The translations under genes were made by a program, and so were the position numbers. A stretch of DNA of 64,000 nt. Origin: Isoetes taiwanensis (Eukaryota; Streptophyta; Lycopodiopsida; Isoetales; Isoetaceae). Location: NCBI GenBank assembly GCA_021234155.1, contig JAJEKV010000104.1:1433900-1497899 (forward strand), read 5' to 3'. The notes under the pieces were generated by a model, which was not told where the DNA came from, did not search any database, and saw nothing but the letters and a program-made list of their open reading frames with translations. Of this stretch, positions 25,766 to 53,744 are shown piece by piece; positions within the stretch are counted from its first letter, which is position 1; each line of letters starts with the position of its first letter.

Positions 25766-27500
25766 ATGTCGGCTCGAGGTTTCACTCCTGAATAACTTCT
25801 TTGCAAAACGGCGGCTCGACTGGAGCGCCATCAACGACGCGAGGCTGTTAGGGATATGTATGACACTGCTTATGACATTGAGGGAGGTCGTATCCGCTCA
25901 CGCGTGCCTCCTACCCCTCGTGCTCATTCTCGACCAGGGTCTCCCCCTGTGTGTCGTCATTGTTCACAACCGCAATCTCCACAACATACCCCCTGTTCAG
26001 CCCGCCTCACTATTTCCGGACTCGGCAAAGCACCTATATCAATATTCCTTCAGGCCACACCTCCTCTCCGCCACAACCATCTTCTCCTCCTGGCTGGAAT
26101 GGGCTACCATCATGTCACCTTTGGCCCTTCCTAAGTTCATGGCATTCCAACTTCTCCCTCTTTTTAAAAAGACGCTCTTCACGTTTATCAAACCACCGAT
26201 CTCAAGCCCTAATGAGGGCGGCTCTCAAGGCCCTTCCCCACCGGATGCTACTTTTATGGACCACCGGGTTTTTCAGCCCCACCACCTTGCACTCGGTCTC
26301 GAGGCGGTTCCACCTCTCTATGCTTCGCATATCCTCAACCAAATCCACTGTCTATGCTCAAGTTCCGCCTTCATCCCCACTCATAATTTGAAGCACTTAT
26401 CCCACTTTTGACAACACTAAAGGCAAACCTCACGGATCAAAGTGCTTGGCACACATGGAGGAATTTGAAGCCTTGGCCATTCTGAGCGATCATCGCACCA
26501 CAACTCAAATTTCATATCTTTTTTTCGACCACGCCGGAGGCGCCCCTCATCGCTGGTTAATGGCCAATAAGAGTCACTTTGGAAACAAAGTTGGCAAGAA
26601 ATGAAAACGCCTTTACGTCTCATTATGGCACCACGGACGATGATCAGTTACTCCTCAAGCAACTCAATGACCTTCAACAAGAGCCCACGGAGTCTGCCCG
26701 GGATTTTGCGGACCGTCTTCACATTCTCGTCAGTAAACTCCAGGAGTACCCCACGCAAAGCCAGATCCTCGTCTGGTTTCTGCAGGGCCTTCCTCCTGCC
26801 ATTCGACTCATGACAGAATCCCTTCGTCCCAAATCTTTGGAGCAGGCCATTGAATTGGTCAATCACTCGGTCAATGTTTCTTCTCGGGGTGTTGCTCTGC
26901 AGGAACTCCCTTTCATGCCCCCCGTCATGGTTCCTCAGAACTCTGTTCAACCTCAGCAAGCAAATCCACCACGCGCTCACATCTAGTGTACTATTTGTAA
27001 ATATCAAGGTCATCTGGCAAATGAATGCAACGCCTCCAATGGCCCTCCTCATTGTAAAAGATGCAATATGTGCAATCATGCCACGGAAGAATGCACGCGA
27101 TCTCCTCCTACACCTTTTCGTAATAAAATGGTCTTTCAAGTCCAGACCACGCCTCAACACCAACCGTCATATCAGCCTCAGTAATATCAAGCTCAACAAC
27201 CACAGCAGTATCAACAACCGCAGCAGTATCAACAAACGCAGCCTGTTCAGCAGTCACGGGGACAAGGCAACCGTCCTCCTTTTGATCCTTCCAAGGCTCA
27301 ATGTTATCATTGTCATGAATGGGGTCACACCACCACGGCGTGTCCTCAACTGCCTCAAGTTCAAGTTCAACTTCCGGTTCCAATCAACCGCTACGTCCGT
27401 CTCACGGCTTATCAACTCTGGGTGGCCAGCGGAAGCGGGGCCCTCGTCTGTTTTGAGAAAAGCCTCGGCCGCCTCAACAACAAATGACCTCGGCAAAAGC
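25766..27500 (+). pseudogene. Gypsy 2 gag
   Basis: ATG at 25,766 (MSARGFTPE) is followed by a basic helix with RLERHQRREAVRDMYD. The capsid domain lies near 26,430-26,890 (HMEEFEALAIL, FADRLHILVSKLQEYPT, WFLQGLPPAIR). Three zinc knuckles follow: CTICKYQGHLANEC (26,987), CKRCNMCNHATEEC and CYHCHEWGHTTTAC, with a Gln/Tyr-rich linker QYQQPQQYQQ. Stops at 25,793, 26,984 (TAG) and 27,182 (TAA), plus frame changes, inactivate it; the last two stops could be CAG/CAA to TAG/TAA. It ends abruptly at the insertion of the 18.2-kb element, in the frame that continues at 45,703. Confidence 0.88.
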
Positions 27501-27560
27501 ATTAGGGCGGTTTGGGTCCGAAAATGGCCCTTATCTTGGGCTAAAGATTTCCACGTCCGG
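27501..27560 (+). repeat. Left terminal inverted repeat
   Basis: ATTAGGGCGG followed by TTTGGGTC and GAAAATGGCC, paired with the inverted copy at 45,645-45,702. Confidence 0.75.
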
Positions 27561-28188
27561 TCGCCGGGACCAATCAGGTTTGGCCTTTTTTCGAAAGTCG
27601 GTATTACTTGGCGGTAGAAGGATGGCGGGCTTACTTGGCATCCACATGGCGTATTTTCATAGGGGATGCTGCTTTTATTGCAACCATTTTAATGGCCCGT
27701 ATTTTTTCGAGTCGGCTAAACCCTAGCCAAAATAATGGTGACTTTGACCGCCATCTTGTCGGCGTCACCAACTCCCTTTGTCAAATTTTGGCGCCAAACT
27801 TCAGACTTGTCACTCCGGCGCCTCTACGTGCATCCTCTCGCCTTCACTCCTCATCGCAATCCATGTCTCCCATGTAATTTTACGTGTTCTTGCCCCATTT
27901 ACAGAACTCCCAAGGTCAAGAAGTGGGAGGTTTTGTCTCAATAGGTTCAGGGTGAGTATCTTTTGCCATCAACGAGGGGCGACATAGAGTTAAGCGACAA
28001 AGGCGATCGGGCGATGGGACACATTGGATAGGTAGGATAAAAGAGTTCAAGTTGAATTCTAGCGTGGGAGGAAAGTGGAAAGTATAACAATACGACATGC
28101 ATATACCCCTTCCGATATGGCCAAAGAGCTAATCTCCACCAAAAAAAACTTCCCAAAATTGCCCGCGAAATGGTAACCACCTTAAACG
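27561..28188 (+). other. Left subterminal region, no recognised gene
   Basis: Several short open frames in different phases suggest decayed coding DNA (for example VEGWRAYLASTWRIF near 27,608), but nothing is recognisable. It leads up to the first hairpin. Confidence 0.4.
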
Positions 28189-28257
28189 GATCACACGACG
28201 CCGGCTTAGCCGCCGTCCTACTTAATCTGCGTAGAGATAGTTTCGCGTCGTGTGATC
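28189..28257. repeat. Hairpin unit 1 (69 bp)
   Basis: Arms GATCACACGACGC and GCGTCGTGTGATC are perfectly complementary over 13 bp, around a 43-base loop. Confidence 0.9.
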
Positions 28258-30028
28258 TTCTTATCTTTTCATTTCTTTTCGTTGACACGTGTTTACAAAC
28301 AAATTTATTGTGCGGGTTTATGTTTATCGGACATCGTGGATGTCATTCCTACCGAAAGTATTAGTAGTGTACTTGTCGTGTATCACATAGACATCGAATT
28401 GTCCTTTTCCAAGGTATGGATGCCGTGACCTTGCGGGGTATAGGCATCCGGTTTTTACTGGACATGATTATAACGTAAAGGTCGAAAAACCGAGCTTGAG
28501 GCGGTTGAATTGCCCCCCTTTAAGTGAACTTTGTAAGCCACGGACTAATGAGAACAATGTAATTGCAATGAAGAAATGCATGGTCGACGAGGTGCAAGCG
28601 GGAATGTCCGAAACGGAGGCGTGAGGATGAGTTTCAAAATCTTCACACCGTTTGAGGTATTTGCTAACATATTCTAGATGGCGAGGAAGTTCGAAAAGTT
28701 CAGAAGACATATACGTGCTTTCTCCCCCTGATTTTGTGGATGGCTTATTTTTGGTTCCGACACGGGATGTTCGATTCCACGAATCATCCTGGTCAACTAA
28801 CGAGGTCCGCGTAGTTAAGTCCTCCTTTAAGTTCGGATACTTTCTTCCAAAACAATATTTATCGTTAATTGTCAACTAGAACGAAGGAAACGAAAAAGAG
28901 AGGTCGCACAACTTTTTGGGAGCCGTTTTGAGGACCATAATGAACACTCCGTCACGGTGGATATTCGAGTATGGAGAGGGGAGGAAGTCATTTATACGGC
29001 CACCATGGAAAGCGAATGGCCATTATCAGAGCTAAGAGTGCTAATGGAGACAGAGGAGATTGCTGACGACTTCCATCTTATATTATAATGTTATTGTGTA
29101 AGTGTTGGACCCAGCCCTAATTTGGGCGGCCCAGATTTGATGAAATCAATGGAGGAGATGATGCGACGTCAAAATTTTTAAGATAACATGGGTTTTTTTT
29201 TCTAGGGTTAGCGAGGGCGGCTGTGGCACGTTCGAGCTGCTAGCTCCTCCTCCAGAACGCATCTTCTGGAACAATCTCTGAGTTGTGGACTGCGGATGGT
29301 TGAGCTGGGTACTGGCCATAGCAATAGAGTTCAGCAACCCACGGTTGAATTCGAATTCGCCTTCCAGCCAATCTATCGGCACTTCCCAACATCCAGTGCA
29401 ACCTCGAACCAGTCCCTTTTTCCGTCCTCATGGTAATCTTTCTTTCTTTAACAGTTCGATCTGTTTTAGTTTTGATCTGGGTTGTTCCTTGATGCTAATC
29501 GCTGCATGAAATCTTAGGGATTTGAAACGTTTTTCTATGCGAAATGAAGAATCTGGTTCTAATGCAGGTGAATCCTGATTTCTTTACAAACAGGGCGTAA
29601 AATATAAAGGTGCAAGCATACAAACACTTCATTTTCTTAAGATCTCATTGTAGCCAATTGAACGAGGGTTTTTGAACAGGAAGTTTCTCTATGCTTCAGG
29701 CGGCAGAGGTCCCATATGCTCTTAGGATCATCGTCTGCAATGGATTGTTTTCGACAATAGAGTATTTTCTGCCCATGTATAGCTTTGTTCCTGCCAGAAT
29801 TTTCAAAGCGGTATTGCGTCTTTCTTAGCAAAGCATGTTCATTTCTACTTTACAGGTTTGAAAACGCAGCATTTCTTTAAAGTGCAGATACCTAGCTAGA
29901 TGGAAAAATGGTAAGCCGTATATTCTTTCTTTTTTACACGTTTCCCAGTTTCATGGCATTCACAGCTGTGAGCACTCTATTTGTCAGGGCATTTTTTAAA
30001 CGAATCATTTTTGCTTTTGTTACCACAG

Positions 30029-30059
30029 GACCCAAAGTTGATATCTGGAACTATAACAG
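30029..30059 (+). other. Captured mini-exon (31 nt)
   Basis: ttaccacag precedes and gtcag follows the 31 bases, giving good splice signals. The parent gene is unknown. Confidence 0.35.
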
Positions 30060-31054
30060 GTCAGAACCCATCAATAGCTTAAAATACAGTTACTTCAATG
30101 AGATTCAATCCAGGAGAGCCAGATATTTTCTGCTACTACTGCCAATGACTGCAGCATCTGCATTTATGATATACCAATGAACACTTCTTTGAGGAAGATG
30201 ATTATGCAGACAGAGAATACAATTTGCTGGAACTCACAAGAAGCCTTCAATTTCACTGGAGTAAATGATTGTAATTGCTATAGTTATGACATGAAAGGGT
30301 TGAAGTCTGTTACATGTATTCACAAGGGTCATGTGTCTCCTGAATGGATAGTGAGTATAGCCCAGCTGGTCGAGAATTTGTTACCTGTTCTTATGATAAG
30401 CAGTCAGAATATTTGAGTATAATGCAGTGTACAGAAGGGAGGTATATCTAACAAAAGGCTCATAGCATGTGTCATTTGCAACACTAAAAGAGAAGTTTGC
30501 GAATAGGCATAAAAGAACCCTTTGCCAGCAGCAAAGGTTTGCGTACTTAGAAGGTATAGTTCTTTAGTACTTGATTTCGTTATGTTTTGTTGTTAATTTG
30601 GAGCACCTGTACGTTAATTATGGCCTTATTAGTTGAAAAAGGCTTTGAAATTCAATTGCTTAATCTACTATAGAGTTTCGAATACAATGGCTCATGCATA
30701 AGAAATTTTGGAAAAGATGGTGTTGGAGCTGTGTTAAGGGCTCCACATGGACCGTGTTAAGGGCTCCACATGGACATGTAAGTTTCTAGCTCAATTGGAT
30801 ATTTACCTTACATGAGTTTTGAATGACAGCTTTAAATGGCGGAATTCTTATTTAAACGAATTATGTTGTAGATCCTGTCAAGTAAAAGTTTTTGTCACTT
30901 GGAAAATCAACTTGCAATGATGTTGTTGTTGCAGAAAATGTCAAAAGGATACGTGTTCCAACTTGGTCTGATAGGCTCATTCCACTATTTGTTTGCCCAT
31001 AACTACTTATTCTGTTGTCTGCCTTAGAGGATGCTGGATAGCAGCAATATGTGG

Positions 31055-31166
31055 AATGTGTGAACATATAAGAAGCTCCTTATATAAACTGTGGAATGTG
31101 TGAACATATAAGAAGCTCCTTATATAAACACAATGTGTGAACATATAAGAAGCTCCTTATATAAAC
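31055..31166. repeat. Three tandem copies of a 35-bp unit
   Basis: Units opening aatgtgtgaacatataagaa start at 31,055, 31,095 and 31,132 and end ccttatataaac. Confidence 0.95.
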
Positions 31167-31864
31167 ACAACTGGCTTAGTTTTCTACAATTTTATAAAAT
31201 ACAAGGTAAGAAGATAGTTGAATAGGACCGAAACAATTGTGGCACACCTCTTGAAATATAACTGGAATGATACTTGAACAAGAACAAAATTGACATTCAT
31301 TTCAATTAACGTGTTCAAAAACTGGAATGAGCAGAATACCCAATTATCAATATTGCTTGCAAGCATAAATGGGCATGGTTATGATGCCATTCATCTTTTA
31401 TCTAAATAATTCATTCCAGATATTTATATTATGCAATAATATATATTCTTTCAGATTGCATATTTTAGAGTATATGCATAATGGAGTCCTCCTTGGTATC
31501 ATTTAGCAGTTCCCAACATAAGTTCCTAACATATGCCCAGCAACTCATAGACATCAACAACTCATAGAGGCACTTGCAATCTACCGGTTCCCAAAATGAT
31601 CCAATGGTCAAAACTTATTGTACGCAAATGCACAGCTCAAATGGCCTAGAAGTTAATGTATATGCAAATGCTTAGGTTCCCAACATTTACATGTTTCGAA
31701 ATTATGCCCAGCAACGCTGGGCACCATTACTAGTTATTTTATTGATGGCATTAGGGTTGGTTACAGGCAAGAGGGAAATGTAAAGTTTAGTGAGTTCGCG
31801 ATCAACAAGAAATTGTCTATCGGCTAGCGCTTTGAATCTCGGTTTTTTATTTGTGTTTTTGTCT

Positions 31865-31917
31865 GATGTTTTTTTAGGGTTCCGTATTTTGTCCGATATT
31901 TTTTTAGGGTTCCGTAC
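31865..31917. repeat. Two tandem TTTTTTTAGGGTTCCGTA units
   Basis: Two copies separated by ttttgtccgata, lying between gene X and the H3-like gene. Confidence 0.85.
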
Positions 31918-32007
31918 AATTATTTAAAAACGTTACCATCATATTTTACTTTAACTTCGCTTTTTACTATTTATCTCTTTGCCGCTTGTCTATTTTTGTC
32001 GTTGTTC

Positions 32008-32845
32008 GTAGTATAAAGCGCCATCCGCCGAGAAGGCCGTGGCAAGAACTAAGCAAACCGCAAGGATCCATCCGTGTGGTGTAAGGCCGGTGATTACATT
32101 AGTCCGCCTTCTTCATCCGACTTCAAGTCTCGATAGAGATTCTCCTCCTCCCACCATGCCTAACGTAAGACCCTAAAAATCCGCATGACGGGCGGGGGAG
32201 AAGCAAACCGAGTAAGTAGGGAGGTGCATCCTGCCTCGAGACGAGGATGAAAAATGTGAGAGACCGCTGAGCGTAATATGACGCCGGATTAATTATTAGC
32301 CGCCTCTTTCTGTTTTTTCCCGCCTCCCTCCCGCTCCTTCCGTGGAGGTGCCGGACCTTCAAATCAAAGGAGGAGGCCCAATGCCGTAAAGGGGAAGGCT
32401 ACCTGTGAATGTGGAGGAGATGGTTTTAAGAGTCGGGCCGAGGAAAAAGCCCGCAGATGTTGGTGAGGAGGCGGAAGAAGGGTCGCCCAGCAAATGTGCT
32501 CCAAATGCCGGGTGGTGAGGGTAGTGGCCCTGTTTTAAGACGGCCGGGCATTAAAAGCCTTCGAGATTAAGAAGCGCATCGGAAGAGCACCGAGATGGTC
32601 ATTCCGCGCCTCCCATTTGCCGTGCTCGTGAGAGAGATTCGCAAGAGTGTGGTGCGACATACATCATACCCGCCATGTAATTCAAGCAAATCAGCCTTTA
32701 AATGCTCTTCAAATGGCTTCGTGGCGGTTGGTGTCGGTCCGTTCGAGGACTCGCACTTTGCGAAGAATACATGCCAAGCGGGTGGACTGTCATGCCCAAG
32801 GACATGCGCCTCGTCTTACGCATAAGGGATCCCGAAAGTACTATG
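32008..32845 (+). pseudogene. Histone H3-like pseudogene
   Basis: A TATA-like box (gtagtataaagcg) near 32,010 precedes GTGGCAAGAACTAAGCAAAC, which encodes VARTKQTAR, the H3 tail start with ATG changed to GTG. The histone fold follows at 32,541-32,840: RPGIKSLRD, HRKSTEMVIPRLPFAVLVREI-type block, LQMAS, then in shifted frames FEDSHF, IHAKRV and MPKDMRLVLRIRD. The canonical H3 equivalents are KSTELLIRKLPFQRLVREI, FEDTNLCAIHAKRV and MPKDIQLARRIRG. A stop (TAA after LRD) and several frameshifts inactivate it. The 470 bases between tail and core are an intron, an insertion or an expanded tail. The core is divergent from canonical plant H3, with an IPRLPF-type first helix. Confidence 0.75.
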
Positions 32846-33036
32846 GTCAAAATTTTATGGCTGAATACAACAAGAAGAAAGACCCCCTGGAAAAAGGCCG
32901 TGGAAGTGCCTTTGTGTTTTTTCATATGTATAATATTTCTTAATGTAATGGCTTTATAAGCTTAATCTCTTAGTCCATTTCTTTCTTAGAAGCCTAGCTT
33001 CAAGACTTTGTATTTTTTTTTTAATGTTATAAGTGA

Positions 33037-33105
33037 GGATCACACGACGCCAAAGAAGCATTGTGCTTTTTTGTTGCACATAGTAGTCTTCGCGTCGTGT
33101 GATCC
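33037..33105. repeat. Hairpin unit 2 (69 bp)
   Basis: Perfect 14-bp arms GGATCACACGACGC and GCGTCGTGTGATCC. A second helix (TGTGC with GCACA) lies inside the loop. It directly abuts the CCCTAA array. Confidence 0.95.
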
Positions 33106-33133
33106 AACCCTAACCCTAACCCTAACCCTAAAA
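33106..33133. repeat. (CCCTAA)4 array
   Basis: Four CCCTAA units, TTAGGG-type rather than the common plant TTTAGGG. It lies upstream of an ATG at 33,259, as telo-boxes do in some plant promoters; a similar array lies at 53,184-53,211. Confidence 0.9.
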
Positions 33134-33258
33134 TGTACGGACAAATCTCCCCACAACGGCTGTGTCCCCTTTCATAATCGACAACGGCTACTTGAGTTCA
33201 AAAGTGACAGCGCCTTACCGCTCCTAAACATCTTCTTGTTTTCGTCGTTTGCTTCGCC

Positions 33259-33669
33259 ATGGATTGTTATGTGAAGTTCCTGGAATGGTATGCATCCGCC
33301 CCTCATGACAACGAGGAAGTTGCGCCGACTGCGATTTATCCGTTCTATTGCAAGGAGTTGGACATCATGGCAAACAGTAGCGAGCTTGGATGCTATCGCG
33401 AGGTTGCCTTTTAGCTTTCACCCCGACCGCTTGGTCTCAGCAAGACGCCCTTGCGTGATGTCCCTCGCTCGTGGATTCCAAAACCAGCTCTAGATGAGGC
33501 GCTTCCCATTTGCAAACAGGGAAGATGTTTTTCAAGAATGCTTTCCAAATCGGGCTCCTCCCCGGTCGTCCCCTTGTGCTTAAGAAGGTATCTTATTTCT
33601 CTTTGCCATTTGCATTTGCTAGTTATTGCATTCTCGCTTCTACCAAACCAAGATACACTGAAACAATGA
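33259..33669 (+). pseudogene. Small unrecognised gene after the telomere-like motif
   Basis: gccATGG at 33,259 opens a 52-residue frame beginning MDCYVKFLEWYASAPH and ending at TAG. Coding-like sequence continues in other frames to about 33,590 (MFFKNAFQIGLLPGRPLVLKK). No family is recognised; broken by at least two frame changes. Confidence 0.4.
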
Positions 33670-33689
33670 AATCTTTTTAAGCCAAGGGG

Positions 33690-34376
33690 GTCGGTTATGT
33701 GTGATGATGCCGACTATGACGTAGAAATGGAGATAGATCTACAAGAAGAAGAGCAAGAATGTAGGAGTTTTAGCTTCACGACCGGCCTTGGGTGAACCCG
33801 TGAGGAGGGAGATGATTCAAGGTGATGAGGATGGAGATGAGGATGAAAAGAAGTTGTCCGACATAACGCCAATTTTAGTGGAAGGCAAAGAATACTTATT
33901 GCTAAGTGATATACCGAGGAACCCGCCTTTGTTACTTAATGTGTGCTAGGGAAGACGAGCTTATCAAGACCTTGGCCGAATGGGTAAACTTAGGCCTAGA
34001 TTTTGAAGAGGATTTGGACAAAGAGATGTTTGAAGTGTCTAATTATACCGCAATGCTATAAAGCTTAAATAAGCCTATGAGAGGGCTGGAGTCTCGATTT
34101 GCTCAAGATGAGGCGAATCTACCAACCAAGAAGAATTCCAAATGCCTCGCGCAAAGTCATAGCAATGATCTACAGTGTTTGGCAGTGCCCTTCAAATAAT
34201 CGCTAAAAGATAAGCCCGGTAGATGAGGATAAATGTGAAGAAGATAATCTTGAGGGTTCTTATTTGTGGGAAGTAGATGATTTTTCTTACGACATGCACG
34301 CCGGGGACAGAAAGATTGAAGGACTCCTACATTGTTACGATATATCTCAAGATTTGTTAATGGGGAGATAATCGTC
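33690..34376 (+). pseudogene. Unrecognised acidic coding-like region
   Basis: Consecutive open pieces in alternating frames read as one acidic protein: DVEMEIDLQEEEQE, then GDEDGDEDEKKLSDITPILV with SDIPRNPPLL, then LAEWVNLGLDFEEDLDKEMF and LWEVDDFSYDMHAGDRKIEG. Composition and phrasing look like real coding DNA damaged by small indels. Family unknown. Confidence 0.4.
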
Positions 34377-34499
34377 TTCGCCAGTAACTTTCAAATTCAA
34401 AAGGTCTGAGTTTGTCTATTACATCCGTGCATTATGCATGTTCGGGGAACCATTCCCAATTGGCATCAAACACCGAAAGGGGTGATAGCAATTCGGGGA

Positions 34500-34735
34500 T
34501 GTTGTGTTACAATATTTTGACGACCCAAGCCGGTCTCATGGGCGAGCAATATGTTAAATTTTTAGTCTGGGGCTTGACTCACCCAAGGTTGGAAGTCGGG
34601 TCGATAACATGGAAGTCATTGCCTTGTTGGATCAAGTCGCGGGGGGATTGAAAGAGCATGAAATTGACGACTTAAGCTTGAGAAATTGGAAGTTATATGT
34701 TTTCCAACTTGTATCGGTAAAATTATTTATGTACG
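34500..34735 (+). pseudogene. Unrecognised coding-like region
   Basis: Two overlapping frames read LTTQAGLMGEQYVKFLVWGL and then NMEVIALLDQVAGGLKEHEI, continuing to RNWKLYVFQLVSV. The hydrophobic pattern fits a helical domain. One indel near 34,590-34,605. Not recognised. Confidence 0.4.
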
Positions 34736-34800
34736 TTTGTCCTTCCGAAATTCCTAATAAAAATTATTTTATTTGTATATATTCACATCACGCCAAATAC

Positions 34801-34844
34801 ATCACCGATTTTCATTATATCTAGGTTTTCGCGTCCGTGGTGAT
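34801..34844. repeat. Short hairpin relative (44 bp)
   Basis: ATCACCGA...TCCGTGGTGAT; shortened relative of the 66-69 bp units and closest to the one at 35,545 (ACC paired with GGT instead of ACAC with GTGT). Confidence 0.6.
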
Positions 34845-34897
34845 ATCTATCTCAAGAAATGAAATATTATTGAAAAAGACAATTAATTTATTTATTC

Positions 34898-35430
34898 CTC
34901 ACACGACGCCGAGAAGCAACTCGCGGCGACTCATGTTATAAATAGAAGACCGATGTCCACGCCGACCTCCGATCGCCTTCCTCGCCTTCCTCGCTCATCT
35001 TCTACTACCGGCTTCCGCCTTCCACCTTCCTCGCCCGATGGCATCATCATCTTCCTCAGCAAGCGACCACGCCAAGATAGCACTCCCCTGCCCCCCCGAG
35101 CTGCTTCCCCGCGGACATCACCCTTGCAAAGGGTGATGAAGAGATTCAAGGAGATCCATGATGAAAACCGCCTCGCCGCCGAGAACAATGAGGCTGGGCC
35201 GACGATTAGCCTTCATGAGGGAGGCTGCCGCGCCGCGGCGAAGCGTAGACGTTGAGCTCGTGGAAACATTCGCCATGTACTAAGAGGCTTAATGAGCCGC
35301 AGGGGCGGCGCTTGAAACCGCTCACATGATTTCGTGAGCCTTAGAATATATGGAGAAGAAGCTCCGAAGCATGAGGATGAGAACGCAGCCCCACGGCCAG
35401 TACCGCGGGACATGAAAATCAGCTAGAGGA
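34898..35430 (+). pseudogene. Small-gene family unit 1 (MASS type)
   Basis: CTCACACGACGCC at 34,898 is followed by TATAAATAGAAGACC (34,937), a CT-rich leader and ATG at 35,038 (MASSSSSASDHAK). After a frame change comes VMKRFKEIHDENRLAAENNE, a charged, probably coiled-coil segment. Remnants run to about 35,424. The promoter, leader, MASSS start and VMKRFKE block recur in the following units. A 3' region with tttattaaaa leads to the next hairpin. Function unknown. Confidence 0.6.
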
Positions 35431-35544
35431 TCATGAAGATCCCTAGCCGTTGTATCTATCTATTTTTTGCTTCAAAGAAAAGTTTTCTCTATTTTTGCTT
35501 CTATCTATCCCGTTGTTCCAATGTATGTTCTGTTTTATTAAAAT

Positions 35545-35611
35545 ATCACCGACGCCGAAATGCCTTGCTTGCAATTAGGTAGCAATCAATGGATTTCGCG
35601 GCCGTGGTGAT
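35545..35611. repeat. Hairpin unit 3 (67 bp)
   Basis: ATCACCGACGCCGAAA pairs with TTTCGCGGCCGTGGTGAT. The arm change ACAC to ACC is matched by GTGT to GGT. Confidence 0.85.
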
Positions 35612-35865
35612 CTCCATGCCGCTCTATTTTGCTTCAATGAGAAGTTCTATCTTTAGTTATGTATCAAGAAAATTACTTATGTATAGATTGTATCACCGAA
35701 ATTATCAATAAAAATTATCACACGAGCTTTCTCTCGAAGAAAAGATGTTAGAAGAAGTAATGGTCCTTTTTCCTCACACGGCCAGTAAGCAACGTACGAT
35801 TTTTCACCCCTCGACCCACGGCATCCTTCAAGGCTTGGTGACTCAACTTACTACAAAATCCCCAT

Positions 35866-36400
35866 TTATAAATAGAAGACCTTCTATCTTGCCTTCGACC
35901 TCCGATCCTCTTCCGCCTTCGCTTTTCTCATCTTCTCCAGCCCTTCGCCTTCCGCCTTCTCCTTCTCCTCAGTCCTCTTAAAGCTTTTAAGCCTTACGCT
36001 CATCTTCTCCCCTTCCGCCTTCCACCTTCCGCTTCCGCCTTCTCCTCCGATGGCATCTTCATCCTCCTCCAACAGCGACCCGGCAGAGCAGTGCCAGGGA
36101 CATCACCCACTTGCTCGTGGTGATGAAGAGATTCAAGGAGGTTCACGCGGCGAAAAATGGTCACTGTTGCCGAAGATGGGAGGCGTGGACAAGTTAAATT
36201 CCGGGGGGCTGCTGCATGAGCTTAGACCTTGAGTCATGACAGCATTAACCAGTGTACCGAGGCCAATAGCCGAGGGTCGGCGCGCTTTAATCGCACACAA
36301 TATTTCGCAGCGCTTAGAAGATATGGAGAAGAAGCTTCGAGCCGCAGGATGAGAACGCAGCGACTTACGCTTCCATTCCAGGATCATGAAGATCCGTAGC
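35866..36400 (+). pseudogene. Small-gene family unit 2
   Basis: TATAAATAGAAGACC (35,868), a CT-rich leader with purine-free stretches, and ATG at 36,050 (MASSSSSNSDPAEQ). In the next frame VVMKRFKEVHAAKNG aligns to unit 1. The tail part AYGEEAS-type remnants and the 3' end near 36,400 resemble unit 1 (cttagaaga-tatggagaagaagct). Broken by a frameshift between the MASSS start and the VMKRFKE block. Confidence 0.6.
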
Positions 36401-36485
36401 CATTGTATATATATTTTTTTGTTTCAAAGAAAAATTTGCTCGCTTTCTTGCTTCTATCCGTTCTCTTGTTTTGTTTTATTAAAAA

Positions 36486-36554
36486 GATCACACGACGCGA
36501 AATGCCATTCTTGCAATTAGGTAGCAATCAATGGATTTCGGGCGTCAGATGATC
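36486..36554. repeat. Hairpin unit 4 (69 bp)
   Basis: GATCACACGACGCGAAATGCCATT pairs with AATGGATTTCGGGCGTCAGATGATC; the longest arms of the set, about 24 bp with a few mismatches. Loop sequence is shared with unit 3. Confidence 0.9.
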
Positions 36555-36915
36555 TCCACAACGCATACACCTCGTTGTATGTATAAATTCATAATTTATT
36601 AATGGAAAAGTATATGTAACACAAATATCTAGCTAGATTATGTGATAACTTGCGTAAATGCTAATTTGCATGTGGATGACAACGCCTATTCACATCGTGG
36701 CTTTGTGGATGACAACGTCATGCCAAGGGCGTGGCATCTTGCCGCCACAATAACACCGTCTTTTGTACGGCCTCGCATACAAGATTTCGGCTGGGATATG
36801 ACGGATCCCATGATGCGAACATAGGCTACCGTTGCCTAATTGCATGCTATAATTTCGCCTCGTGGGATTATCACACAACTTTATCTCCAGACATAGAAAT
36901 AGATTCCAACGTATC

Positions 36916-37436
36916 TCTAGTTTCTATATAAAAATGCCTGAGGCCTTTGTCTTCTCCTATCCGCCATCTCCTGTTCTACCACATCCCCTCCACCATCTCT
37001 CCCCGTTCTCCCATCACTTTCAATGGCCTCCAACTCCGCCCATCCCCGCCGAGATCTTGTCTCAAGTTTTGGTCAAGGAAATTCGTAATATTCGTGGCTT
37101 AAGCGGAGGAAACGGATCCGCCTTCTAAAAAGAAAAAGAATGATGAAGACGCCGCCAAGCTGGTTGCGGCAGAGGAAAAGGCCGCCTTCATGGGGAGGTG
37201 ATTTTAGTGCGCGACAATCACGGGTTGCCTTAGGATCCGCGAATTGCGCGCTACCACGAGATATAACCTCCAAGAGAGGCTTAGGGCCGCAATCGGGCGG
37301 GAGGCTGCCCTGAGCCCAACTCGATGAGCGGGAAGATAAGGTTGCTAATATGAGAACGTGGTTGCGAGGCAAATCATGTTGGAGGAGCAAAAAAATTATC
37401 ACCGCCTCTCTAGAAGAGCTTGCCCGGCGATCATAG
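36916..37436 (+). pseudogene. Small-gene family unit 3
   Basis: TATATAAAA (36,923), CT-rich leader, ATG at 37,023 (MASNSAHPRRD). After frame changes the sequence is Lys/Arg-rich and then carries EDKVANMRTWLRG and a helical end (ITASLEELARRS). It follows the same hairpin-TATA-MAS order as units 1, 2 and 4, but its middle is more divergent. Confidence 0.5.
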
Positions 37437-37592
37437 GCATCGGGCTCCTCCTAGAGGGCCCGCTTTTTTTTTTTTTTTTTTTATGTTTGTAATTGGTTTT
37501 ATTTCTCAATGGGAAAAGTTTTTGACAAATGTGCCAATATTACGCTTCCTATTTTTAATTTTCAATATCCGTGGTAGAGAGAATGACAAGAT

Positions 37593-37658
37593 GATCACAC
37601 GGGTTTAAACCCTTCATAGGGTTTTAAAGCTCGAATTTGCGATTTCAAAGGGTGTGAT
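37593..37658. repeat. Hairpin unit 5 (66 bp)
   Basis: ATCACACG...GGTGTGAT outer arms with an inner helix GGGTTTAAACCCT/AGGGTTTTAAA. Less regular than units 1-4. Confidence 0.7.
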
Positions 37659-37796
37659 ATACAAAGGTAGTTAGAATAGTTATTAATGTGTTCCAAATGA
37701 CAAGACCATTAATGTGTTCTAGCGGACAACCGACAGAATCCGCTTCGACACGCATGCACGCAACCGAAAGTGTGTTTTAATATGTTGAAGCTTAAT

Positions 37797-38323
37797 ATGT
37801 ATAAATTGAGGTCCTTGCATTGTGCTCCTTCCGCCGGTTAGAGTCTTTTGCTCCTCACTTCTATAATCTTAACGTCCCCTCCCATTTGTCATCTATGGCC
37901 TCCACATCCTCAACCGCCGATAATGGAAAAATCGAAGAGGATAGAACTCCCTTCCCGACATAGTGTTGGGTGTTCTAATGAAGAGGTTGAAGGAGCAAGA
38001 TGATCTTCTAAAGGAAAAACGCCGTTACAATTCAGCGTAAAGAAGAAGAGAATGAATTCAACCTTCTCATGCTTCAGAGCCGAGAGGCAAATCAGCGTTG
38101 AATAGAAGGTCGATGTAATGACATGCCCCAACAACCGTGACCGAGGTGGTTATGACTAAACGAGGATGCTAATTCAAAGTGTAAGAACACGCTGTGCTAT
38201 TGGGACAGGCCGGGACATGTACAAAGAGATGGTGGACGATTGGAGGAACGCTTGGATAGGGTGATTGCTCGCTTGAGGGGAAGAGATGAAGACTTAAGAC
38301 GAGGGACGAGCGAGCCACAATGA
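37797..38323 (+). pseudogene. Small-gene family unit 4, with zinc-knuckle-like end
   Basis: TATAAATTG (37,801), leader, ATG at 37,895 (MASTSSTADNGKIEED). A frameshift leads to DIVLGVLMKRLKEQDDLLKE, matching the VMKRFKE block of units 1 and 2. The last 45 codons are open: CKNTLCYWDRPGHVQRDGG, a degenerate CCHC-like motif, then a charged helix ending at TGA 38,321. Nucleic-acid binding is possible but weakly supported. Confidence 0.55.
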
Positions 38324-38476
38324 GTCGCTGTATTTTGTTTTCAATGTAACATCTTTCACAACTTTAATCAAAAGTAACCCTTTTTATTATTATCTTGTAA
38401 AGCTTCACACCTACGCCGCCACATAAATGCAAGCAATAGCGAACTCCACTCGCTCGGGCCAGTATGATACAAATAA

Positions 38477-38543
38477 GATCACACGACGCCAAGCTACAGC
38501 AGTAAACAAGGTTGGAGGCAAAGTACTTCAAGGCCGTGTGAAC
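38477..38543. repeat. Hairpin unit 6 (67 bp)
   Basis: GATCACACGACGCC on the left and GGCCGTGTGAAC on the right; imperfect arms. Confidence 0.7.
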
Positions 38544-38727
38544 ATGCTACACATTACAAGTATACTTTTACCGATTCTTTGTCTCTTAGATTCCACCAAG
38601 GCGATGCTAGTGGGGCCTAAATTTTGCCAAGCAACTTTCCGCTTTCTTCAAGCATTATGCCAATGGTGTTTACGACTGGTTGCTCCTTAAAGCTTACCTT
38701 CTTGTCGTGTTTAGCCATCGCCTTCTA

Positions 38728-39340
38728 TAAAACCACTCGTCATCGTCTTAGAGGGTTGGTTCCCACATTTCCACCCCCTCTTTGAGTGTTACGATGAAAG
38801 GCTATTTTAGCTTGTTTATGCGACTTCTCCATGCCTTGTGCACTCCACAATCGCTAGGCTTCCATACTTCCTAAAACCAAGGTGCATGAGCCCAAAAGAT
38901 GTGCAAGTAGTGCGTGACTTCACTCTCTCCCCATGCGTCTATGAAAGCTTTAATAAATTTGTTATTCGCTTGCACGAATATTTCTCATCTTCTCTTGTGA
39001 GGTCCATTCTCTCGAATGTATGGGAACAATTCAGACAATGCATCCCATGCTTTTTTTCCTCAATGCCGAACGAACGCCATCCTCAGGCGGGTCCTCCGCC
39101 TCATCAAAAGATCAACCAAAGCAATTTTCCAAATTCATAGACCTTTCTCCCATCCGGTTTCCGCTCGTGAGCCTCTCTATGATTCTTTATGAAGGCCGAA
39201 GCCACCCCTCCAATTGACACCTTACGAGGCACACTTGTTCTTCCCGCCCGCTTCTCATCGAAGCTCTAATCTTACATTGCCACCATGCAAACCTGCTTCG
39301 ATAGAACATGTTCAACTCTACGAATTCCTTCCTCTCTTCT
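38728..39340 (+). pseudogene. Unrecognised coding-like region with TATA box
   Basis: tctataaaacc at 38,727 precedes coding-like pieces in shifting frames: PYFLKPRCMSPKDVQVVRDF with SPCVYESFNKFVIRLHEYF, then AILRRVLRLIKRSTKAIFQI, then ATPPIDTLRGTLVLPARFS. The pieces read on as a single protein if small indels are allowed. Family unknown. Confidence 0.4.
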
Positions 39341-39367
39341 CTTCTTGTCCGAAATGTTCCACACGAA

Positions 39368-41099
39368 TCAGTAGCTCAAAAATATCATCTTGTCGATGAT
39401 TCTCACAAAGCCGCAAAGTGCGATATGAACCCTCTCTAATGGAATGGGGAAAATGCCATGGAACTTGGGATCTTCTTCTCCTCTATTAGGAGCATTTGCT
39501 TGGTTAAGGGACAAGGTTGAAACAGTCTTCCCAAGATTTGACTTCCTTGCATGATTGCGATGCATAAACTTTTGCATGTTCCTTGTCCTCCTCCACTTAT
39601 GTTGTACATTGCTTTCTCAGTTTTTAAATCAGACGCCAAGTGAAAAATTACTTTGTAAGATCCATAGTGATCTACTTGCAATTTTTCCCCTCCCTCGAAT
39701 CTAGATATTAGACTTCGGGGATGTCAGGTTTGATTGAACACCCATTTCAATACCTCGTGGGTTTCTTTTCTCAACTTTAAAGAGACCTAACCACCGTGTG
39801 TCATCTTCGATTGACATGAGAACCATTTTTCCAAGACGCTTCTTCTCCTCATCCGTCATCTCTACATCTTTTTTGTTATTCTTGTTGCTCTTTGATTTAG
39901 CATGTTTGCATTCTCAATTGCTCTATTCATGATGACAACGGATACCCTCTCATACTTCTCAAATTTGGTCAGTTCCATTTCATCCAATTTTATGCAAACT
40001 TCAATCTCACCATTAGTTTCTTAAATCAAGTTAAGTCATAATATTTGACAAGGAATTTTAAGAGAGTAATCAGGTCAACCCAAAGATTATTGCGTTCATT
40101 CATTCCAACTATATCACAACAATCCTTGCCATTCTTATCTTTTATGGCTATGGCGGGGACCCTAAAGACATTCAACGTGGTGCATCTCTCCTAATATGGC
40201 ATACACCATCTTTGTCCTAGTAACCCTTGTATTCTCGACAATTTGTGGACGGGGAGCGAATACTTTTTGTGCCCATTCTTTTCAACGCTGGGAATGGCTT
40301 GAATAGAGAACGTAACCAAGCCTCCACCGATGCCTACATCATCACAAACAATCCGTACATCCGTCGCTTCTAACTTCTTGTAGATCTCCCTAGTACCATT
40401 TCCAATACCATCTTCTTGAGAGGAGAGTTGTAGGGCTGACAAATCATGTCCACTATCTCCCCTCGCTCGTCGCTAGGTTCTTCACTACGTAACCAAGATT
40501 GCTTCTAGTTTCCCCGGATCTTAACCGGCCTTTGCTAGTGTTGTAAACGGACCTTTGTGGCGTGACCACTGCCTCAATGCACCTGATCCAAACTTCAGTT
40601 CCTCTATCTATTCGATAATGCTTCTTCCTTTCTGAAGCCAAGGGTGTTTTCTTCAAATTCTTTAACCTACATTGAAGCCCAAAGTTTGCTCTTTTCGAGC
40701 TCTTGGATCTTTTCTTGCAACTGCCCTATCACCAATTTGGACTTGTCCACTTCAGATCTCAAAGAAGTTTCCCTCCCCAAGCCGTCATTCCTTTCCTTCA
40801 TCACAAGGAGTAATGGCGAGAGAAAAAAGAGAGCTGGTTTAAGTTATAATTCTCTTGACAATCGAAGCAGCTCATCTCAAGGAACCTGTATTCGATTTGA
40901 ATGCCTTCATCCTCTCTCAATCTCTCACAATATCCCAAGAGGCCGAGTTACCGTCACCACAAAATCTCGACTAAACTTGAAACGTCCCGAAATGATGGCG
41001 GTTTCTTGTCACTCAACGGATCCAATGGATATAAACCCGCCATCCGCCTGTAGATGTCGACACTTTTTGAGCACGCATATGCAACATGTCGAGGTCTAA
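39368..41099 (-). pseudogene. Unrecognised minus-strand coiled-coil-like gene remains
   Basis: Minus-strand open pieces from 40,656 to 39,368 carry TEVWIRCIEAVVTPQRSVYN, TDVRIVCDDVGIGGGLVTFS with SLPVHKLSRIQGL, EIEVCIKLDEMELTKFEKYE with MNRAIENANML, and VDHYGSYKVIFHLASDL. Upstream (41,099-40,660) the strand is rich in Glu/Lys-type codons. It is convergent with the plus-strand region before it. Many frame changes; not recognised. Confidence 0.4.
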
Positions 41100-41229
41100 G
41101 TTCTTATTTTTAGACCTCCTTTTTATGCGATTCAAGATCGGAGCATATTCCCCGAAAGTCAGCTTGGATCCTTATCCACATCATTTGAGCTTCCATACAA
41201 GCGTGGATCGCATTTCGGCGGTAAAATGA

Positions 41230-41696
41230 ATGTGTACAATTTGTATGCCCCAAAGACAATTAACTTTCGCTGAGGCTCAAATCAGTACTAACCTCGCTTT
41301 TTTGAAATTTGCAACGTGCATATGGAAATCGAAAAGTCCATTCTCCTACAATCCATGCTTTTATACAAAAGCAAATTCAAAATTCAATTGTAGGGGCGGA
41401 AGCCCGTATTGGGATGAAGTAAAGATCCCTTCATTTAACTTTTAAGGCGCAATCAGCGTGCCATGAAACGAAAAGTCTAATACAAAGCTTCAACCTACAC
41501 ATTCAAATTTTGAAATGTAGAAAGCTGGAATGGACTCTAAATGAAAATAGGGCAAGACAAGAATCGGTGATGCGCATGATTGGTATCACGACAAACCAAG
41601 AGACACCTGGTCATGAGTTGCCGGTATGTTATAATGCAAGTGGCTTTTTAGAAGCCGGTTTAAGGCCAATGCTACAACAAGAGAATTAAATACATA
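41230..41696. repeat. Right-end repeat copy A, left part
   Basis: This segment, continued at 43,602-43,715 beyond the Helitron, is a diverged direct copy of 45,155-45,680. Shared blocks include aacgtgcatatggaaatcga, gatacaaagcttcaacctac and catgagttgccggtatg. Confidence 0.85.
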
Positions 41697-43601
41697 CTAG
41701 TAATGGTACCAAAATTTTTAAATTAGAACATTTAATTTCTTTCTTTTTATTCTCTGTTTTTTTTTTTTTTTCAACCCCTTCTCCCCTCCCTTTGCCTTCC
41801 CCTTCCCCTTCCCCTTTTTCTTTCTCTTTTCTTATCAGCTTTTTTCCCTTCTTTTTATCTTTCCCCGCTCTTCCCATTTTTCTACTACTTTTTTCCCTTT
41901 CCTTTTCCCCTTCCTCTTCCTTTTCCTTTTCCTTTTCTCTTTCCCGCTTTCTCATGCATTTTTTTCATTCTCTTTTGCTTACCTTTTATGTGCCCTTTTC
42001 TTCCTTTCCCCACCCTCTTCCTCTTGATCACGTGCCCTTTTCCCCATCTCTTTTCCCATTTCTCTCTCCCCTTTCTTCTTCATGCTCTTTTTTGCTTTCC
42101 CTTCTCCTTTTTTTCCGCTTCCCTTTTCCTTCAACTTTCCATTCCCTTTTCATACTTTCCCCCACCCTTTTGCTTTTATACTGTTCCTTTTTTCCCTTTC
42201 CTTTCTCTTTTCCCCTTCCTTTACATTTTCCTTTCCCTTTTCATATGCCTCTTTTCATTCCCTTTTCTCAACCTTTTTATGTAATTCTTTTTCCTTCTTT
42301 TCCCCATCCTCTTCCCCCTTTTCCCCTTTCCACTTTCTCCTTTCTTGTTTCTTTTTTCTTTTCCCTTTCCCATAGTTTTTTTCCCTTTCTTTTTTCTATT
42401 TCCTCACCCTTTCCCTCTTCCCTTTTTTTTTTGCCCTTTTCTCCTTCCTTTTTTTCCTCTTTTTCCTATTCCTTGCTCCCACCCTTTGTCTATTCTATTT
42501 TCCCCCCCTTTTCCTCCTTTTTCCATCCTTTCCCTCTTCCTTTTCTCTCGATGCTCTTTTTGCTTCCCTTTTTTCTCTTTCTTCACCCTTTCTCTCTTCC
42601 CTTTTTTTCACGCCCTTTCCTTTTTTCTCTTTTTCTCGTTCCCTTTTTCCAAGTTCTCTTTTGCTCTTTTCCCCTCTCTTTTCCTTTTTACTTTCCTTTT
42701 TTCCATGGACTTTGTAACCTTTTTCTTATTTTCCCTTACCTTTTTCTCCTTTTTCTCACCCTTACTTCTTACCCTTCTCATGGTGCCTTTTTCCTTTCCC
42801 TTTCCCCTCAGCCTATTCTATTCCTTTTTCTATTTCCTTTTTATCTTTCCCTTTTTCCTTTTGTCCTTCTTTTTCCTTTTTCCTCTTACCTTTCTTTTAT
42901 TCCTTTTCCTTTTCCTTTTCCCTTTCATCGCTTTTTCCTTTTTCCTTCCCCTTTTCCTTTTCCCTTTCATCATTTTTCCTTTTCCCTTCCCCTTTTACTT
43001 TTCCCTTTTCCCTTTCATCGTTTTTCCTTTTCCCTTCCCCCTTTCCTTTTCCCTTTTCCCTTTTCCCTTTCATCGCTTTTTCCTTTTTCCTTTTCCCTTT
43101 TCCTTTCCCTTTTTTCCCTTTTTTCCCTTTTCTCTTTCATCGTTTTTCCTTTTCCCTTCCTCTTTTCCTTTTTCCTTTTTTCCCTTTTCCTTTCATCGTT
43201 TTTTCCTTTTCCCTTTCCCCTTTTCCTTTTCCCTTTTCCCTTTTCCCTTTCATCGTTTTTCCTTTTCCTTCCCATTTTCCATTTCCCTTTTTCCCTTTTC
43301 CCTTTCATCGCTTTTTCCTTTTCCCTTTTTCCTTTTCCTTTTCCCTTTCCCCTTTTCCCTTTTCCCTTTTCCCTTTCATCGTTTTTCCTTTTCGCTTCCC
43401 CTTTTTCTTTTCCCTTTTCCCTTTCATCGTTTTTCCTTTTCCTTTTCCTTTTTCCTTTTCCCTTTCATATTGAAGCCATAGTCAAGATGAAATTTTAATT
43501 GAAGACACACACACATCATCTCCACCATTGGTCAATCAAATCCTCGACCGTCCGATTTAGGGCTCCATTGAAGACACACGCTATAATTTTATAATATAAG
43601 A
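41697..43601 (-). mobile_element. Non-autonomous Helitron, about 1,905 bp, filled with a pyrimidine tract
   Basis: On the minus strand the 5' end is A|TCTTATATTATAAAATTATAG (43,601) and the 3' end is GGTACCATTACTAG|T (41,697-41,700), matching the ...CCATTACTAG of the element ending at 31,733. The usual strong GC hairpin is lacking at this 3' end. Flanks are aattaaatacata and tatggcgcc; the homologous site at 45,529-45,550 reads aattaaatacatatggcgcc without the element. Ninety percent of the element is a CT tract. Confidence 0.85.
41756..43470. repeat. Kilobase pyrimidine tract with a tandem CCCTTTCATCG unit
   Basis: A C/T-only tract on the plus strand of about 1.7 kb. From about 42,925 it is a tandem array in which ccctttcatcg recurs about ten times at 35-70 base spacing, separated by cctttt/cccttt runs. 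Long frames here are rich in Phe, Pro, Ser and Leu and are not genes. Confidence 0.95.
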
Positions 43602-43715
43602 TATGGCGCCATAGATATGCGATTCCCCTTATTCCGGGAGAATATTCCAAGCAAATCTGACGGGAAAAAAGGGGCGGAAATATGACGTGGAATGGCTGAT
43701 AGGAGGCCATTTTAG
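43602..43715. repeat. Right-end repeat copy A, right part
   Basis: It continues copy A after the Helitron: attccaagcaaatctg and ggaaatatgacgtggaatgg match 45,578-45,665, and it ends where copy B continues into the terminal inverted repeat. Confidence 0.85.
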
Positions 43716-43822
43716 TTCATAAAACATAATATAACTTGGAATGATAGATATTTTATATGCAAATGGGAGACTATTGACGAGGGACTTGTGTTTAATTTTA
43801 ATTTGACAACAAATAAGAAAGT

Positions 43823-43890
43823 GGATCACACGATGCGAATTTAGTGTGTTCCATTTTTGTTGCATATGTACTATTCGCTTGGTGTGATCC
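43823..43890. repeat. Hairpin unit 7 (68 bp)
   Basis: GGATCACACGATGCGAAT pairs with ATTCGCTTGGTGTGATCC at 16 of 18 positions. Confidence 0.9.
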
Positions 43891-43899
43891 TTGAAAAAT

Positions 43900-45150
43900 A
43901 ATATGCTCTTTGAAAAGGGATAATGACTTATGTACTTAAGAGTGGTAACACATGTACAAGAAAAAAAAGTTAGGTATTCAAATGGAATTAGAAGCAAAAA
44001 CTTTTACATTCAAAATTTTTTATGGTCAGATGGCTTTACATCATTTTGTAAATTTAAATGCCCGGAGGCTTCAACTATTCACAACAAAAAAGCCCGGAGG
44101 CTTGCAGTCATATGGTAAGAAGTTGGAGGCAAGCTCGACTAAGAACAAGGAAAAAAAAATAAGAGGTGCTCTACCCTAACAAATTTCATTCATCTGCTTC
44201 ACCATCTGCAAAAAAAAAAAAAGAAATAACAGTTAGTTGAATGCTTAAGAAAAGAAAGAAAACATGCATGTACCATGAACTAACGCCATGAGCTCCTCAA
44301 GTCGCTAGATTCGCCTTCAACTTCTTCATCTTCTTCATCATCTTCTTCTTCTTCTCCGGCGTAGACCACTCATTTTCTGAAGAATCTCCTATCCAGCCTT
44401 CAAGAACACACACGTGATGAACTCCTGCTCCCGAATTTCTCTGATTCCTCATTCTCGATTCCTCACCAAAGGAATCGAGGAATCGAGGAATCGAGGCATT
44501 CAGTGAGTAAGAACCGCGGCAAATGGAGGGAACTCATGGAGGAACACCTCTTCCAGCCGTAATAGGCTCTTTGGAGGACACCTCCGGCTCTTCCAGAGCT
44601 GATCTCTTCATGGCGATGGACTAAAGAAATTGGGCGGAGGATCTAGCTAAGATTGGGCGGAGATTGGGGAGAATGGGCCAATCTAGGCTGGAATAGATAT
44701 AGGCTGGATTAGACGTGAAAAATCGTGAGGGAATGATTCGTATTCCAGTCCTATCAACCATCATTACATGCCATTATGTGCATATCTCAAATTTGAGCCA
44801 TATCTAATATCTTCCTTTTTAACCTTATACCTAAATATCCAATATCTTCCTTTTTTAACCTTATTCCTAAATATCCAATATCTTCCTTTTTTAACCTTAT
44901 TCATAAACCTATATGATTTGAGTTTAACCTGAAAATGAACACCGATATAATTCGAATTTAACATACTATTTAATACCAAGATGCTACACACTATGTCGAT
45001 AATTGGGATTTAAAAAAAACTCCAAACCCTCCTCGAGAAAACCACGTAAGTCTTGACCTCACTTGTGTTTAAGTTTAATTTGACAACAAGCAACTTCCAT
45101 ATTGTGTAGATCGCGACTGCCAAATCAAGGTGTGGTGTTTTTATGCCCCA
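43900..45150. other. No recognised gene; short tandem repeats
   Basis: Contains CTT-rich microsatellites near 44,310-44,360, a GGAATCGA repeat near 44,462-44,490 and three tandem copies of a 36-bp unit (tatcttcctttttaacctta type) at 44,805-44,895. No coding pattern seen. Confidence 0.5.
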
Positions 45151-45154
45151 ACAC

Positions 45155-45680
45155 AATTAAACCCGTGTGAGCCGAACGTCCGCATTAACCGTTTTTTTGA
45201 ATTTGCAACGTGCATATGGAAATCGAAAAGTCCATTCTCCTACAATCCATGCTTTTATACATTAAGCAAATTCAAATTTCGAATTGTAGGGGCGGGAAGC
45301 CTCAGATAGGATGAAGTGAAGATCGGTTAAAAGCGCAGCTGCCAGCACCCAAAATGAAAGTCCGATCTGATACAAAGCTTCAACCTACACATTCAAATTT
45401 TGAAATGTAGAAGGCGGTGACGCGCACGCTTACCAAGAGACACCGTCATGAGTTGCCGGTATGCTATAATGCAAGTGGGCATTTTAGAAGCGCCACGTGT
45501 TGCATCAGTCCGTCTGACAACCAACAGAATTAAATACATATGGCGCCATGAATGTGCAATCCCCCTTATTCTGGAAGAATATTCCAAGCAAATCTGTAAT
45601 TATAAGAGTTTGGTATCCTAGGTGGCATGGGAAAAAGGGAGCGGAAATATGACGTGGAATGGCTGATAGGAGGCCATTTT
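45155..45680. repeat. Right-end repeat copy B (near-empty Helitron site)
   Basis: Direct copy of 41,230-41,696 plus 43,602-43,715 lacking the 1.9-kb Helitron. It ends in the terminal inverted repeat of the giant insertion. Confidence 0.88.
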
Positions 45681-45702
45681 CAGACCCCAAATCCGCCCTA
45701 AT
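45645..45702 (-). repeat. Right terminal inverted repeat
   Basis: GACGTGGAA ... GGCCATTTTC.GACC ... CCGCCCTAAT, the inverse of the left end at 27,501. Confidence 0.75.
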
Positions 45703-50076: not shown

Positions 50077-50509
50077 CTACTCCGGGTTTGGAGCAGAGGT
50101 GATACGCAGGATGTGGTAGTAATTCTGCTCCGGATCCCAGCGCAGGTGAATCACCACCTCCATCCCGTTGGTCAGGGGGTCGGGATGCTCAGCCATCCCG
50201 GCACACCACCCGTCCATTGCGATACCACGATTGTGGCACCGCCAGAGGTCCAAGCAGTCCATCTTGCAGGTAATCCACTCAAGGCAGTTTGAAGGCATAG
50301 TGCACTTGTCGTGAAGTCCAGCCGCAGACATACTGAGCGCCATCGGGTGTCTCAGCTTCAACCACTGTTCGTCTTATATAGCCAACCAAGGACCTCCCGG
50401 TCGACGTGGACCAATCAGAAAATTCGCCAACGTGTTCGCAATGCAAGGCTCTTTCTAATTTCAGAATCTTTTCTCCCGCCGCATATCTAGCCATGGTACC
50501 TTCTGACAC
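50077..50509 (-). pseudogene. Antisense ORF between integrase and ORF3 of gypsy 2
   Basis: Minus-strand pieces read MARYAAGEKILKLERALHCE and TSTGRSLVGYIRRTVVEAET, then in another frame CLEWITCKMDCLDLWRCHN and WDPEQNYYHILRITSAPNPE to the stop at 50,077. The phrasing is clearly protein-like, with one frameshift near 50,290. Antisense ORFs in the 3' region are known from large Tat-type plant gypsy elements; the relation is inference. Function unknown. Confidence 0.6.
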
Positions 50510-53158: not shown

Positions 53159-53183
53159 TATTTTTTGCCAAATAAAAACCCTA

Positions 53184-53211
53184 ACCCTAACCCTAACCCT
53201 AACCCTACATC
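53184..53211. repeat. (CCCTAA)4-5 array
   Basis: aaaCCCTAACCCTAACCCTAA and onward, five units with the last imperfect. It stands about 70 bases before an ATG, as at 33,106. Confidence 0.9.
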
Positions 53212-53280
53212 CACGTTATAAGTGGATCCATCAGTAGCTGATGTTATTCTTATCTTTTGAGTGTTCTTCCCTATCTTGCT

Positions 53281-53740: not shown

Positions 53741-53744
53741 AGTT

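Follow-up and report, generated by a model that had tools for sequence, protein, structure and literature searches.

What kind of DNA separates the gag and pol of a gypsy retroelement in the genome of Isoetes taiwanensis? In a 64,000-bp stretch of contig JAJEKV010000104.1 (positions 1,433,900 to 1,497,899, hereafter the window), an 18,204-bp segment at window positions 27,500-45,703 lies between these two parts. A first-pass annotation had proposed a large mobile unit with inverted ends and gene-like cargo, yet no transposase. The mobile unit was borne out, the best reading being a large cargo-bearing DNA transposon: copies of its right end sit elsewhere in unrelated surroundings and stop at the same boundary. 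The transposase is not missing; one is present, broken and too diverged for Pfam. We consider it highly probable that the segment is a large DNA transposon with CATTAG...CTAATG ends; it likely entered the gypsy element by cut-and-paste and carries a broken gene of a family with a predicted RAG1/Transib fold, RAG1 being the enzyme that cuts antibody genes.

Translation of the minus strand from 41.2 to 38.6 kb yielded a single long protein broken by frameshifts, pieces of which matched the database proteins P0001 (E = 1.3e-42) and P0002 (E = 3.2e-38). Two more searches brought this transposase family to 12 database sequences. In tblastn comparisons, every one of P0001-P0008 matched the window gene, the longest over most of its length. 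Pfam scans of eight of the 12 database relatives, and of two intact transposases from the genome, gave no domain above the cut-off; P0003, P0007, P0010 and P0012 lay outside the scan, and their precomputed domain field is empty.

Two AlphaFold models, made from different relatives of the window gene, both gave RAG1 and Transib (HzTransib included) as their only significant structural matches. The family is thus predicted to consist of DDE transposases of the RAG1/Transib fold with a D-D-E triad. Mouse RAG1, its sequence checked against PDB 4wwx and numbered by H937, bears the motifs D708, C727-x2-C730, H795, H937-x4-H942 and E962. In the family, DLKT, CxYC, VHxCTLH, THYxHxxxxH and QGMEKSHK follow one another in the same order, giving the series D, D, C2C, H4H and E; the residues were set against RAG1 by eye and by alignment tests. 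All six motif patterns, including KLDE, were found at six of eight genome loci, in five of the eight within a single open frame. Furthermore, the C-terminus of the window gene, read across three frames, aligned to RAG1 with a score of 63, which was reached by none of 5,000 shuffles (maximum 47) and by none of 400 random places given a free choice of frame (maximum 48). A profile with full C-termini selected the same place in RAG1 (P = 0.011; the best of 12 shuffled RAG1 sequences gave P = 0.049). Residue 694 of P0001 fell on mouse RAG1 938, the last aligned residue (VIA row), which, assuming no gap, sets THYM (689-692) on TNYF (933-936). Most of the predicted relatives (P0001, P0004-P0009) end shortly past THYM or THYI and differ in their tails, as would be expected if an intron came next; in the Isoetes genome copies the gene continues unbroken.

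The limits of the element were delineated from its own ends and from its relatives. The window ends, CATTAGGGCGG..CCGCCCTAATG, are inverted over 36-39 columns with few gaps, and their local alignment scored 47, whereas 5,000 shuffles reached 28 at most. The inverted ends first placed at 27,501 and 45,702 are therefore real, but each true limit lies one base further outward, and the similarity spans 36-39 bp rather than about 55 bp. Three further copies support the right limit, and five related elements support the outermost base. On the left, positions 26,603-27,388 are gag-like and match the gag of the window's other gypsy element (E = 3e-7); on the right follow protease, reverse transcriptase and integrase in the same orientation as that gag, confirming that the segment parts the gag and pol of a gypsy element. 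Self-comparison of the window gave no long terminal repeat (LTR) pair for the interrupted element. Excision of 27,500-45,703 leaves an open frame over the junction, as had been claimed; however, the earlier limits do likewise in another frame, and because both sets leave an open frame, reading-frame phase is uninformative.

The transposase is not confined to this locus. A search of the genome (1,658,258,908 bases) with P0001 returned 68 matches in at least about 61 places (61 of 3,821 candidates scored), of which 15 of the 68 were stop-free over at least 670 of 727 residues, with frames of up to 931 residues. We fetched 30 kb around each of six transposase copies. Complete elements were delimited by a scan for distant inverted repeats in c930 (12,956 bp), c1048 (7,616 bp) and c1038 (6,515 bp), and by anchoring on CATTAG in c1084 (8,628 bp) and c941 (5,214 bp). 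All six two-ended elements, the window's and these five, start with CATTAG (in full CATTAG[A/G]G) and end with CTAATG, and hence have CA..TG termini; the motif itself served to locate the ends in two of the five relatives, that is, in two of the six. No direct repeat abuts both ends in five of the six elements, and that of c930 measures 1 bp, a count that excludes c496, with one end, and the copies behind L027, L028 and L029, with right ends only. Near the far end, a second gene (open reading frame 2, ORF2) faces the transposase in four of the five other complete elements; its pieces from two elements gave no Pfam family. With their shared termini, a transposase-like gene and, mostly, this second gene, these elements are a family within one genome. 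The transposases L007 and L008 differ by 0.168 at non-synonymous (dN) and 1.36 at synonymous (dS) sites, and the other nine of the ten pairs were saturated at silent sites.

The right end of the window element also recurs in the genome. Its last 111 bp occurred in at least 40 places (40 of 1,575 candidates scored), namely the window and 39 others at 99% identity. Three of the 39 were fetched; all terminate exactly at ..CCGCCCTAATG, the DNA beyond being unrelated, and stretches of their interior share 87-92% identity with the window. Without its two nested Helitrons, which make up about 4.6 kb, the window element measures about 13.6 kb. The features of the segment are collected in Table 1.

Table 1. 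Features of the 27,500-45,703 segment, in window coordinates.
Feature	Position	Strand	Basis
Left terminal inverted repeat, CATTAGGGCGG...	27,500-27,535	+	36-39 column inverted match to right end; CATTAG[A/G]G start as in five relatives
ORF2 remnant facing the transposase, 3′ side cut by Helitron	27,974-29,075	+	Translated matches 27,974-28,395 and 28,930-29,085 to ORF2 region of other elements
Hairpin, GATCACACGACGC stem	28,189-28,257	+	Perfect 13-bp stem; fold z -4.9
Nested Helitron, outside element proper	~29,076-31,733	+	TC...CTAG ends and A/T flanks by eye; same ends repeated elsewhere in window
Broken histone H3-like cargo gene	32,039-32,827	+	tblastn of H3, E 5e-9 across two frames
Hairpin 3′ of H3-like gene	33,037-33,105	+	Fold z -7.9
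Broken cargo gene B	33,260-34,730	+	Reading of translations; no Pfam or NCBIfam match
Small cargo gene array	34,928-38,340	+	Two clear, two more by eye; common to C985 and C974 copies
Hairpin relative after small gene 1, weak	35,545-35,612	+	Fold z -1.8
Hairpin relative after small gene 2	36,486-36,557	+	Fold z -3.3
Hairpin relative between small genes and transposase-like gene, weak	38,475-38,542	+	Fold z -2.0
Broken transposase-like gene, predicted RAG1/Transib fold	~38,790-41,160	-	P0001/P0002 matches; tblastn P0001-P0008; C-terminal motif test
Inner duplicate of right end, Helitron-split, without terminal repeat	41,224-43,713	+	Matches 45,122-45,680
Nested Helitron, polypyrimidine-rich, outside element proper	~41,697-43,601	-	CTAG and TC ends by eye; repeats
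Hairpin between both right-end copies	43,823-43,890	+	Fold z -6.4
Right end region	45,122-45,703	+	Last 111 bp 99% identical at 39 other places
Right terminal inverted repeat, ...CCGCCCTAATG	45,665-45,703	-	Inverted match to left end; boundary identical in three fetched copies

Several observations weigh against interpreting the segment as one transposon with a RAG1-like enzyme. Of 19,679 randomly paired window stretches, 23 likewise attained the terminal score of 47; the duplication length was read from occupied sites, with no empty site seen; c496 yielded one end only; and c941 has no ORF2 among frames of at least 100 residues. Model confidence was low (predicted local distance difference test scores, pLDDT, of 55.5 and 52.2), with whole-chain template-modelling (TM) scores of 0.18-0.32. 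The profile with full C-termini reached an HHalign probability of only 3.9 against RAG1, and one built from mostly truncated relatives did not select RAG1. Because PDB sequence searches did not return RAG1, the link to it rests on the predicted fold together with the ordered motifs. Finally, two of the further copies, C985 and C974, match the window only from 34,931 and 34,928, their left parts differ, and 17.1 kb and 12.8 kb of their sequence, respectively, showed no left terminus. The left end is known from the window copy only.

The most serious competing explanation, albeit in our estimation an unlikely one, is that the element is a plant CACTA (EnSpm) or other named CMCT transposon, lying beyond the reach of Pfam, with captured gene fragments and a target duplication lost by decay. 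The portion of PMC12730594 available to us characterizes the CMCT clade (EnSpm/CACTA, Mirage, Chapaev, Transib, Plavaka, ESTA, Lanisha) by the motifs C(2)C and H(3-4)H, by termini that are mostly CA..TG and by target duplications of 2-5 bp. The window family shares with the clade, as described there, D, D and E with C(2)C and H(3-4)H between the second D and E, together with CA..TG ends, and extra genes are carried by some clade members as well. Moreover, there was no CACTA structure among the PDB matches, and for that reason the fold match cannot tell RAG1 from CACTA. In contrast to such elements, the scanned database relatives and the two genome copies have no Pfam match, the facing second gene has no Pfam family, the ends read CATTAG[A/G]G and not CACTA, and the duplication is zero in five of six elements, compared with the 2-5 bp given for the clade. 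Several of these five have uninterrupted genes and near-perfect ends, which argues against loss by decay.

A chimera, in which two elements, or one element end and unrelated DNA, were joined by rearrangement and the 18-kb unit never moved whole, appears quite improbable. It would account for the two copies that share just 34,928-45,703 with the window and continue leftward into other sequence with no recognised left end. Nevertheless, the two window ends match each other as well as the family termini, remnants of ORF2 occupy the left end, the place this gene has in four other elements, and on either side stands a part of one kind of retroelement, the two in the correct order. A viral origin, with the segment an endogenous DNA virus or derived from one and its hairpins marking gene ends, is very improbable: the gene-dense layout and the palindromes between genes would suit it, but six-frame Pfam scans of the segment found no viral hallmark family (a result weakened by the broken frames), viral contigs contain no locus related to the transposase family, and what is conserved is a transposase-like gene with ORF2 between short inverted ends.

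Comparison with other named systems further placed the large DNA transposon that we favour. EnSpm/CACTA elements proper have CACTA/CACTG ends and a 3-bp duplication, and the window family has neither. Pack-MULEs and other gene-carrying plant elements with terminal inverted repeats likewise hold gene pieces between inverted ends, but they make a 9-bp duplication, which is not seen here, and the H3-like gene of the window has a counterpart in a second large element. Transib elements, which produce 5-bp target duplications, are represented by HzTransib among the only significant fold matches, but differ from the window family in their termini and in that duplication. To judge from the parts of PMC9435367 and PMC4411706 at hand, RAG-like elements (ProtoRAG) and RAG1 resemble the window family in the inverted ends, in the two facing genes (seen in four of the five other elements) and, at low model confidence, in the predicted catalytic-core fold. 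They differ, as far as these texts describe them, in the second gene, which in the window family has no Pfam match and shows no RAG2 kelch or PHD domain, in the 5-bp duplications reported for RAG-like elements (PMC9435367), which were not encountered here, and in that our PDB searches found no RAG1 match at the sequence level. The consulted part of PMC9435367 also reports 39 plant proteins resembling Transib, so that a transposase of RAG1 type would in itself be no novelty for plants. The family is therefore likely an undescribed lineage within a known kind of transposon; a superfamily of its own is the lesser chance. The fuller proposal of a new plant superfamily, with a RAG1-fold transposase and facing partner, CATTAG ends, zero target duplication and, in its large members, their own H3 variant and cassette-like cargo blocks swapped at palindromes between genes, is one we hold doubtful.

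Regarding mechanism, the element likely entered the gypsy by cut-and-paste without duplicating its target. The transposase would bind the CATTAG ends and cut through the D-D-E triad, and the cut ends would be joined to the target with little or no stagger. ORF2 may act as a partner or accessory protein, and copies with broken genes, the window's included, would have been moved by the proteins of intact relatives. If so, the RAG1 fold has a separate, abundant branch in this plant genome, one with the face-to-face two-gene layout of the RAG locus but with another partner and no target duplication. The uninterrupted genes of one genome would then offer a route to how a RAG-type enzyme sets its stagger and to the role of the partner.

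The genes between the two core genes (H3-like, gene B and the small-gene array) are probably passengers. The histone H3-like gene first proposed is present but broken, and its Pfam Histone match (E = 0.051) fell under the cut-off. The c930 element also has an H3-like gene (39% identity, E = 8e-19, one stop); that two large elements of different make-up carry such a gene is a hint that this cargo is inherited and not picked up at random, and it raises the question of whether the transposon makes its own chromatin. Gene B found no convincing match in c930 (E = 0.82). As for the proposed four-member small-gene family, two tandem genes with about 74% DNA identity are clear, whereas the third and fourth come from reading the translations. 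The match of C985 and C974 to the window starts immediately 5′ of small gene 1. Their differing left parts fit an exchange of cargo blocks, although two copies are few. The C985 copy also contains a 405-residue frame, a short part of which matches a frame of c930 (E = 8e-6 and 2e-5). Left of its shared part lies a DUF7869 domain (L030, 2,343-2,930, minus strand; E = 1.3e-19). A cargo frame of c930 (element positions 6,432-6,875) matches the antisense of the 3′ part of the interrupted gypsy (window 50,089-50,352, minus strand; E = 1.9e-13).

The hairpin repeat described at first sight held up, with a perfect 13-bp stem and fold z values down to -7.9. Among eight window stretches folded, z was below -2 in five; the other three include two half-hairpins. 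Intergenic palindromes occur in both large elements with different sequences, GATCACACGACGC in the window and CGCACCGTAGCCACGGTGCG in c930, where they occupy 15 sites in five clusters; the same scan of the four smaller elements found one in c1048 and none in the others. Speculatively, these palindromes might serve as 3′-end signals or as joints for cargo-block exchange. Short CCCTAA (TTAGGG-type) telomere-like runs lie at window 33,106-33,131, directly after a hairpin within the element, and at 53,177-53,207.

Helitrons have TC..CTRR ends and no terminal inverted repeats. The inverted ends rule out the whole element as a Helitron; Helitrons are merely nested inside it, as called from window self-comparison and TC..CTAG ends read by eye. 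The Helitron at 41,697-43,601 splits the inner duplicate of the right end, and the C985 copy is continuous there, with no Helitron between 41,655 and 43,601. Polypyrimidine-rich tracts recur in the window (41,697-43,601, 55,904-57,617 and 1,281-1,561), and at least two of these tracts share Helitron-like ends.

Pfam families matched in the window include zf-RVT, Retrotran_gag_2 and DUF4219, which are typical of plant retroelements and in keeping with a plant host. Right of the gypsy, positions 52,610-53,918 hold diverged repeats and palindromes built on ACGTCGTTNAACGACGT. A copia element at 9,794-15,793 is very young: its two 840-bp LTRs are 100% identical, and its polyprotein frame is open over 1,480 residues.

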